DNA of 21,486 bases from a virus, in IMG/VR virus record IMGVR_UViG_3300024265_000223, positions 1-21,486 of that record; one strand, written 5' to 3'. A program made the position numbers and the translations under genes. Shown here piece after piece: positions 422-17,723 of the stretch. The notes beneath the pieces are model-generated. The model saw only the letters and a program-made list of their open reading frames with translations, was not told the origin of the DNA and did no database searches. Position 1 is the first letter of the stretch; every line of letters begins with the position of its first letter.

Positions 422-620
422 GGAACTTTGAAAGCTGGGTGTGGCGGAATAGGTAGACGCTAATTCGTGGATTTATAGGCAGTCCTTCGAGGAAATCCAA
501 ATATCTGCTATGTAGGGTGACTATACGAGTACAACTGCACTATTAACATAGCACGCAGTTAATTGGAACATTGTTCTGGTTGCTCTCGGCAAATCCCTAC
601 CACCCAGCTTTCAGAGTTTC
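422..620 (+). ncRNA. Structured RNA of about 200 nt with a tRNA-Leu-like acceptor and D-arm
   Basis: The ends form a helix of about 20 bp (422-441 with 601-620, including G-U pairs). The inner seven pairs, CTGGGTG with CACCCAG, act as a tRNA acceptor. They are followed by TG and a D-arm (GCGG, loop AATAGGTAGA, CGC) that is almost identical to the bacterial tRNA-Leu consensus. After base 460 the tRNA plan breaks. There is a hairpin 468-474/493-499, a helix GTAGGG 512-517 with CCCTAC 595-600 where a T-stem would be, and inside that helix the hairpins AACTGC/GCAGTT (533-538/555-560), GAAC/GTTC and TTGC/GCAA. The 3' part reads CAAAT before CCCTAC, as in a T-loop. No proper anticodon loop is visible. 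An alternative 8-bp helix, 506-513 with 546-553, competes with two of these. It could be a tRNA with large insertions or an intron, or a tRNA-mimicking RNA. It has its own promoter. Confidence 0.65.
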
Positions 621-7131: not shown

Positions 7132-7325
7132 TCTACAAATTTCAAGATTCAACAATTCGAGAAGTAGCGGAAGTGCTATTTCCCAAAAAACCTCATGCCA
7201 AACTCGCACAGAGCGTGGCTGAGTATATGGCAGTTGAAGTGCAAAAAAGTGAATCATCGCGTGTCGATATAGGAACCCTCCAAGGGTTCGTAAACTTCTT
7301 AATTAAAGAGAAAGGATATAACTAA
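7128..7325 (+). CDS. Hypothetical small protein (65 aa)
   Basis: A helical protein with no recognised motif (I-R-E-V-A-E-V-L-F-P-K-K-P, then L-A-Q-S-V-A-E-Y-M). It overlaps the previous gene by four bases and shares its last base with the ATG of groEL, so its translation probably couples to that of the chaperonin. AAAGGA sits 8-13 bases before the groEL ATG, inside its last codons. Confidence 0.65.
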   Translation: MIYKFQDSTIREVAEVLFPKKPHAKLAQSVAEYMAVEVQKSESSRVDIGTLQGFVNFLIKEKGYN

Positions 7326-8845
7326 TGAGTAAAGTACAAATTAACAGCGAAAAAACATTCGAGATAATTAAGTTAGCCGTAGATAACCTCACTAATCTTA
7401 TTAAACCAACATTCGGCCCAGCCGGGAATAATGTCATCGTTTCAAAAATGCTCAGTCGAGGTGTATTTGATGACGGTGTGCAAATCGCCAGAGATTACGA
7501 AACAGATGATCCATCCGAAAGAGCAATTATAGATATTATTCGTGAGACACCAATCAAGACGAACGACAGGGCAGGTGATGGCACAACGCAGTCGCTTATT
7601 ATTCTACAGGCGATTATGAGTGAAGCTGCAAGGAAACCAAGGCGTAACAATCTCAAGATAGTTAATGAACTTAAGGTTGCATCTAAATATATCTCCGAGA
7701 TACTGAAGAAGGACGCAAAGAAAATTACCTCTCTAGGAGATCTTTATAAAGTGGCCCGTATATCGTTTGACGACGAAAAGATATCTGAAATGATCGCTGA
7801 TCTGTATCACAAGCTTGGGAAAGATGGTGTAATTACAGTCGATAAATCTCCTACCCTTGAAACATTTGTTGAGACGACTGATGGGATAAAGGTGGAGAAT
7901 GGCTACATAAGCCAGTATATGATCACAAATGCTGAACGGATGGAGGCAGAGATCCAGAAGCCGTACATTTTGATTACCGATTACCGCATTACTGAGACGA
8001 ATGACATATTGCCGATTATGGAAAAATTAAGCAAAGCCAATAGGAGAGAACTTGTAGTGATATGTGAGAATATGGAACAGCACGCACTCGCAACAGCAGT
8101 TGTTAATAAGATTCAAGGTAAATTCAATCTTGTGGCCATAGTTGGTCCCAAGCATGACAAAACTTGGATTGACGACTTTGCAACCGCAACAGGAGGTAAG
8201 GTATTTAGTGAATCCAAAGGTGACAAGCTAGAACTCGCTGAAATAGCAGATCTTGGCCAAGCTAATAAGGTTGTCGTTAGACGTACTGAAACGATCATAC
8301 TCGAACCAAAGAGTAAGGATGAAGATGTAAAGAAGGCAATCGCCTCTCTTCGAACAGCACACGATGCAGAGAAAAACGAGGCACTGAAAAAGGCAATTAT
8401 GAAACGTATCGGCATGTTTGAGAATACTATCGCTGTAATCCGAGTGGGTGCATACACCGATAGTGAACAGAAGAATATAAAATACAAGGTAGAAGATGCC
8501 GTGAGTTCCGTACGTCAGGCACTTCACAATGGTGTGGTATGTGGCGGCGGTTTATCGTTAGCTAGAATCAAGACTAAGAGTGCAATCATGAATGTAGCAC
8601 TCAAGGCTCCGATGGATCAGCTATGCGAAAATATGGGGATAGAGATGACTGTTGACCTGAAGAAGCCAGATGAAGCTATAAACATGGTTACCAGTAAAAC
8701 GGGAAATTATCTTGAAGTAGGAGTTATGGATCCAGTTGATGTACTTGTCGCCGGGATAGAGAGTGCGGTATCAACAGTATCGATATTATTAAAGAGCACT
8801 GGAATGATTGTCGAATTTCCAGAAGTACCAACTAAACAAGAGTAA
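7325..8845 (+). CDS. groEL: GroEL-like group I chaperonin, phage-type
   Basis: The 506-residue protein aligns along its length with GroEL (about 548): P-T-F-G-P-A-G-N-N-V near residue 28, F-D-D-G-V-Q-I-A-R with Asp50 (GroEL Asp52), A-G-D-G-T-T with Asp85 (Asp87), G-Y-I-S-Q-Y at 193-198 in the apical domain, K-V-E-D-A-V with Asp391 (Asp398, needed for ATP hydrolysis), V-V-C-G-G-G and G-N-Y-L-E-V-G-V-M-D-P. The nucleotide site therefore appears intact. The Gly-Gly-Met C-terminal tail that lines the bacterial cavity is missing. The GroES gene upstream is the expected partner; likely clients are phage structural proteins. Divergence is strong, as in other phage chaperonins. Confidence 0.93.
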   Translation: MSKVQINSEKTFEIIKLAVDNLTNLIKPTFGPAGNNVIVSKMLSRGVFDDGVQIARDYETDDPSERAIIDIIRETPIKTNDRAGDGTTQSLIILQAIMSEAARKPRRNNLKIVNELKVASKYISEILKKDAKKITSLGDLYKVARISFDDEKISEMIADLYHKLGKDGVITVDKSPTLETFVETTDGIKVENGYISQYMITNAERMEAEIQKPYILITDYRITETNDILPIMEKLSKANRRELVVICENMEQHALATAVVNKIQGKFNLVAIVGPKHDKTWIDDFATATGGKVFSESKGDKLELAEIADLGQANKVVVRRTETIILEPKSKDEDVKKAIASLRTAHDAEKNEALKKAIMKRIGMFENTIAVIRVGAYTDSEQKNIKYKVEDAVSSVRQALHNGVVCGGGLSLARIKTKSAIMNVALKAPMDQLCENMGIEMTVDLKKPDEAINMVTSKTGNYLEVGVMDPVDVLVAGIESAVSTVSILLKSTGMIVEFPEVPTKQE

Positions 8846-17636: not shown

Positions 17637-17723
17637 GCCCTAATAGTTTAATAGGTAAAACATCCGAAGCGTGATCCCTCCATCATTAATTGGAAAATCT
17701 AGGTTCAAATCCTAGTTAGGTCT
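17637..17723 (+). tRNA. tRNA-like gene with an enlarged anticodon arm
   Basis: The acceptor GCCCTAA/TTAGGTC (one C-T mismatch), TA at 8-9, D-arm GTTT-AATAGGTA-AAAC, four-base variable region and perfect T-arm CTAGG-TTCAAAT-CCTAG are canonical. The anticodon stem TCCGA/TTGGA (17663-17667/17690-17694) closes a loop of 22 instead of seven bases. Within it GTGAT/ATCAT (17671-17675/17682-17686) forms a further helix with a CCCTCC loop and a three-by-three internal loop. No T33 or anticodon can be assigned. It may be an intron-containing tRNA, a non-decoding tRNA mimic or a pseudogene. Confidence 0.6.

Follow-up and report, generated by a model that had tools for sequence, protein, structure and literature searches.

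A widespread family of phage RNAs that keeps the body of leucine tRNA and has lost its codon-reading part

We describe an unnamed and widespread family of phage RNAs in which the body of leucine tRNA is kept and the codon-reading part is lost, so that its members cannot work as ordinary tRNAs. The retained core comprises a 13-bp acceptor/T-arm stack (7 + 6) together with those residues of the D-arm and T-loop that form the tRNA-Leu elbow, and the anticodon arm is replaced by a structured domain, a stem termed P3, often with a pseudoknot. Three architectures were distinguished: type I has an intact T-loop (TGCAAAT), type II has a T-loop opened between T54 and G55, and type III has an intact T-loop and a D-loop opened between G18 and G19. 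The RNA at 419-623 of the window, that is, the whole 21,486-base IMG/VR virus record IMGVR_UViG_3300024265_000223, is almost certainly a type II member of this large family. Phage genes identified in the window by Pfam include an AAA_24 ATPase, a chaperonin, and a gpA-type terminase.

Structure of the window RNA

The RNA is flanked by a CHAP-domain gene (25-294) and an ATPase gene starting at 782. Its parts and surroundings are as follows.

334-348: terminator-like hairpin 3′ of the CHAP-domain gene
384-411, + strand: sigma-70-like promoter, TTGACT-16-TATAAT with an extended -10 TG, 11/12 consensus match
419-441, + strand: 5′ strand of the acceptor helix, a 7-bp tRNA acceptor (435-441) plus a 16-bp extension; pairs with 601-623
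442-460, + strand: U8, G9, and the Leu-type D-arm TGGCGGAATAGGTAGACGC, with D-stem 444-446/458-460; identical in most members
468-474, + strand: pseudoknot 5′ strand TGGATTT; pairs with AAATCCA at 493-499
478-482, + strand: P3 stem 5′ strand GGCAG; pairs with CTGCT at 505-509, giving a short (5 bp) P3 in the window
493-499, + strand: pseudoknot 3′ strand AAATCCA; pairs with 468-474
505-511, + strand: P3 3′ strand CTGCT, then the conserved linker AT, in which U48 could pair with A15
512-517, + strand: T-stem 5′ strand GTAGGG, 6 bp; pairs with 595-600
518-594, + strand: opened T-loop, with T54 at 518 and G55 at 589; a 70-nt insert (519-588), then GCAAAT (589-594)
526-529, + strand: inner stem CGAG; pairs with CTCG at 585-588; compensatory changes at 3/4 pairs among 27 relatives
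533-560, + strand: variable hairpin in the insert, AACTGC (533-538)/GCAGTT (555-560), from sequence and MFE fold
566-576, + strand: variable hairpin in the insert, GAAC/GTTC, from sequence and MFE fold
595-600, + strand: T-stem 3′ strand CCCTAC; pairs with 512-517
601-623, + strand: 3′ strand of the acceptor helix; pairs with 419-441, the tRNA acceptor part being 435-441/601-607
782-1621, + strand: downstream AAA_24 (RecA/Sak4-like) ATPase gene (Pfam PF13479, E 1.3e-36), given for context only

The initial annotation had described a tRNA-Leu-like RNA that lacks an anticodon arm and has an insertion in its T-loop, and both direct reading of the sequence and comparison across the family confirmed this. 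The closing helix, which had been put at about 20 bp, is in fact 23 bp long (419-441/601-623) and unbroken when G-U pairs are counted. The acceptor closes directly onto the 6-bp T-stem, the halves of which are separated by 77 nt, as had been reported, with GCAAAT directly before the second half, and the Leu-type D-arm occupies 442-460. P3 (GGCAG/CTGCT) ends 2 nt before the T-stem and is accompanied by the TGGATTT/AAATCCA pseudoknot, while the T-loop insert has the conserved ends GACTATACGAG...CTCG, followed by GCAAAT. The minimum free energy of 421-621 was -73 kcal/mol (z -5.27), a value equalled by 0/200 shuffles, and much of this stability was due to the long helix, since 432-611 alone had a z of -2.81.

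A normal, shorter tRNA-Leu fold covering the locus had been named as the finding that would speak against this reading; none was detected by ARAGORN, which made no call, or by Rfam, with no credible match at the window RNA even at E ≤ 10. Mutually exclusive helices had also been taken to indicate an RNA switch. The helix 506-513/546-553 does exist, but helices this large joining the corresponding parts were present in 4/25 type II relatives versus 26% in shuffles, which is chance level, and the switch was rejected.

Distribution of the family

BLAST searches with the 5′ half of the window RNA returned matches at unannotated places in many phages, and these followed a common plan: a variable paired acceptor, TGGCGGAATAGGTAGACGC, a middle domain of ~45-160 nt, the dinucleotide AT, and a 6-bp T-stem enclosing TGCAAAT, after which came the matching acceptor strand. 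From phages, prophages, and virus contigs, pattern scans recovered at least 157 distinct members (less than ~78% similarity between middle domains), as well as 27 type III members, a sample biased by the patterns towards the exact D-arm and T-loop and owing part of its uniformity to them. At least 120 loci matched the pattern among 2.9 million viral contigs. The same pattern was found at 66 loci among 84,980 species genomes, which were mostly from Firmicutes and also included MAGs labelled Bacteroidales, Acidobacteria, Alphaproteobacteria, and Methanoperedens. A scan free of the D-arm gave 51 matches, of which 17 were not directly type I (many of these being type III); it still recovered mostly the same D-arm, so the constancy of this element is not only a product of the patterns.

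With model R1, a member was identified in 15/151 Lactobacillaceae genomes, and in ~200 genomes from each of two other phyla none further was found beyond the centre genomes themselves. Members scored ~56-88 bits with R1, and matches at or below 49 bits included genuine tRNA-Leu. R1 alone aligned just the 5′ half of the window RNA, and a second model, R2, was therefore needed.

Members are encoded in sequenced, even cultured phages of Enterococcus, Lactobacillus, Listeria, Bacillus, Brochothrix, and Weissella, and are unannotated because tRNA finders and Rfam miss them. No family in Rfam 15 matched the sampled members (the window RNA and a sample of loci), and a description of the family was not found in the open-licence PMC literature. 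The covariance models provide a ready handle for annotation. Separately, tRNA-Leu-like RNAs with a long middle domain and a standard T-loop were observed in phages of Flavobacterium (L129:1997-2171, T-loop TTCGAAC) and Bacteroides (L135:1998-2114, T-loop TTCGAGT), the latter reaching the Rfam tRNA threshold; these possibly represent a Bacteroidota branch of the family.

Conservation and covariation

Across 89 sequences, the acceptor, D-, and T-stems were paired in 97.8% of cells, and the covariation score was 0.686, versus 0.166 for shuffled and at most 0.14 for slid controls. Compensatory changes occurred at all 7 acceptor pairs in this set, T-stem covariation was seen at 4/6 pairs in types I and II, and compensating D-stem variants (GTG/CAC) were present in three loci (L245, L237, and L094). 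In the middle domain, a P3 ending exactly 2 nt before the T-stem was present in 74/157 distinct members versus 5.5 in shuffles, pseudoknot pairing between the linker and the P3 loop was 1.5- to 3.5-fold above shuffles, depending on the threshold, and the AT linker was retained in 104/114 members, with the U48 column invariant. These helices are conserved in the family comparison and are thus not a product of chance.

Three architectures

Type II was recovered by two patterns. Barring the plain T-loop gave 21 loci, the majority of them opened in the T-loop in the same way, and searching by the ends of the insert gave 26 loci that partly overlapped these. The type II insert ends, GGTGACTATACGAG...CTCGGCAAATCC, and the covarying inner stem are present in the window RNA, and R2, the type II model, which was built without the window, matched 512-600 (55.8 bits, E 4.3e-14). 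The covariation among homologues that had been proposed as a check was found for the inner stem CGAG/CTCG; the interiors of the inserts vary among relatives. Many type II members, including that in the window, also have long acceptor helices. All 27 type III members showed the full architecture with all other parts intact, and their D-loop insert, AC...A, carried GGTAAA in 19/27.

In canonical tRNA, the pairs G18-55 and G19-56 lie adjacent to each other at the tip of the elbow. The extra arms of types II and III would therefore share one position, such that, by analogy with canonical tRNA geometry, their insertion points would meet at the elbow tip.

Comparison with known RNAs

The family resembles tRNA-Leu in its acceptor stem, its Leu-type D-arm with a 3-bp D-stem, G18G19, C56, U8/A14, and a likely A15-U48 pair, but differs from it in the missing anticodon arm, 6-bp T-stem, G55, variable P3/pseudoknot domain, and loop inserts of types II and III. 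The tRNA model (RF00005) did not match the window RNA even at E ≤ 10, its gathering score not being reached. Bacterial tmRNA likewise combines a tRNA-like acceptor/T-arm with pseudoknots and lacks an anticodon arm. Compared by architecture and covariance model, the family RNAs are much smaller than tmRNA, are of Leu- rather than Ala-type, and keep the D-stem, and the tmRNA model (RF00023) had no match at the window RNA. A true tmRNA adjoins one member (L005). The tRNA-like structures of plant viruses, which form the 3′ ends of genomic RNAs and take a tRNA shape with pseudoknots, are similar in that a viral RNA imitates tRNA; however, the family RNAs are encoded by DNA phages, and in them a pseudoknot stands in for the anticodon arm.

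ROOL and GOLLD are structured RNAs of phages and prophages, of unknown function, that often occur near tRNA islands (PMC12286853). Both are far larger than the family RNAs, and the ROOL model (RF03087) matched none of the family RNAs scanned. A partnership with ROOL was rejected, as ROOL was present in just 3/49 member-bearing records and adjacent in one of these, where the ROOL RNA (L026:667-1248) stops 13 nt short of a type I member.

Genomic context and 3′ ends

In many Firmicutes phages, type I members are located after an ArpU/RinA-like late activator and before HNH and terminase genes. No common neighbouring genes were found among type II members. A gene context shared with the window phage was likewise rejected, the RNA being absent from the fetched flanks of the ATPase homologues (L136-L149). 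In 26/125 members, tRNAs were present within 1.5 kb, and in every case on the strand of the member. Each of five loci (L063, L094, L100, L105, and L106) carries two or three members that differ in their middle domains. In L100 (7173-7827), one member of type I and one of type III are close together, with the same acceptor stem and different middle domains. A short array in L063 (253-865) combines two tRNA-like members with a genuine tRNA-Leu(UAA) that has their D-arm, which hints at the ancestor of the family.

The strong promoter that the initial annotation had assigned to the window RNA was recovered as a promoter-like site at 384-411. Upstream of type I members promoters were not enriched (8/88 with a score of at least 9 versus 8% in controls), and a promoter was rejected as a general feature of the family. 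Terminators were found downstream of 15/85 members versus 2 in shuffles.

At the type I 3′ end, A73 (52/96) and U74 (49/96) were above background (p 5e-5 and 9e-8, respectively), and U74 was also present in 71/118 genuine tRNAs of the same loci that lack an encoded CCA. The type I signal suggests, on sequence grounds, tRNA-type 3′ trimming. It was not significant in type II and is absent from the window RNA, where position 73 is a C inside the 23-bp helix.

Proposed function and alternatives

We tentatively consider the family to be a new and widespread regulatory or counter-defence class of phage RNA, in which the anticodon arm of tRNA-Leu has been swapped for a fast-evolving pseudoknot domain and optional elbow-tip arms have been added by two independent routes; our confidence in this falls slightly short of an even call. 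Such an RNA would derive from a phage tRNA-Leu, as the D-arm match to the genuine tRNA-Leu(UAA) of L063 would indicate, and, given that type II neighbours are not shared, would act in trans as a stand-alone molecule. The type I 3′ end would be trimmed like that of a CCA-less pre-tRNA, the tRNA body may gain host processing, stability, or recognition, with codon decoding impossible, and the fast-changing arms would hold a host tRNA-handling factor or a defence effector.

We favour a decoy or scaffold role, probably directed at a host factor, because of the tRNA-type 3′ end, the lack of shared type II neighbours, the varied copies, and LeuRS identity that is not kept, although we rate it, from sequence features, as somewhat less than an even prospect. 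The tRNA mimic suggested earlier thus stands as the best working idea, and the enzyme or nuclease named as its target stays a candidate. Several points count against a decoy or scaffold: canonical elbow binders would be hindered by the elbow-tip arm of types II and III, the favoured type I site near late activator and terminase genes could also suit a role in the late operon, the 3′-end signal lacks significance in type II, and the 23-bp helix of the window RNA is unlike a tRNA end. The family would clearly exemplify the conversion of a tRNA by a virus to another use. Owing to the tRNA core, its processing, charging, and binding can be tested directly in culture.

Among the alternatives, the RNA could be a processing or regulatory element that heads phage late transcripts and, being cut by tRNA-maturation enzymes, sets mRNA ends or timing. 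The position of type I members between the late activator and the HNH/terminase genes, their tRNA-like 3′ trailer, and the placement of the window RNA between a promoter and an operon are consistent with this, but type II neighbours are not shared, other type I members are found within tRNA clusters or at further sites, a phage may carry several copies, and a variable pseudoknot domain would be needless for a bare processing signal. We consider this role unlikely.

Bacterial LeuRS does not read the anticodon, and an RNA with the D-arm and elbow of Leu type, and with A73 enriched in type I, might be charged by it, the leucine being used or sequestered outside translation. However, G1-C72 was present in just 44/132 and A73 in 75/132 (57%) type I members, neither pair 1:72 nor the acceptor stem is constrained in sequence, the acceptor/T stack is 13 bp, and C73 of the window RNA lies within the long helix. 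Charging by LeuRS is accordingly not favoured, and leucylation for a non-translational purpose appears improbable.

The initial annotation had also raised a tRNA interrupted by a small intron, which, extended to the family, would make the type II and III inserts spliced introns and the mature RNA always type I. Excision of the 54/55 T-loop or 18/19 D-loop insert would indeed leave an exact type I loop, but it cannot restore a complete tRNA, because the insert-free RNA is itself of type I and still lacks an anticodon arm. In addition, where the inserts (~40-100 nt) were scanned they gave no match to an Rfam intron, their variable interiors have no common catalytic core, the two insertion sites coincide in three dimensions, as would suit an added arm, and extended acceptor helices accompany many type II members, the window RNA included; we regard splicing as very improbable. 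A functionless origin, as degenerate tRNA genes or attP remnants, was considered because the matches included an attP-like tRNA-Leu half beside an integrase (S-CBP1, L127), but the strong covariation and near-complete pairing of the acceptor, T-stem, and inner stem are not those of decay, leaving this reading a negligible probability and valid just for look-alikes such as S-CBP1.

Other features of the window

A 39-codon reading frame with a hydrophobic C-terminal half is present between the RNA and the ATPase gene (654-773), and the chaperonin gene encoded by the phage (Cpn60_TCP1, PF00118) is at 7325-8845. Lastly, 17637-17723 was identified as a tRNA by Rfam (48.4 bits) and not by ARAGORN. 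Its anticodon arm consists of two stacked stems (TCCGA/TTGGA and GTGAT/ATCAT) with no 7-nt loop, making it a second unusual tRNA-like gene of this phage.
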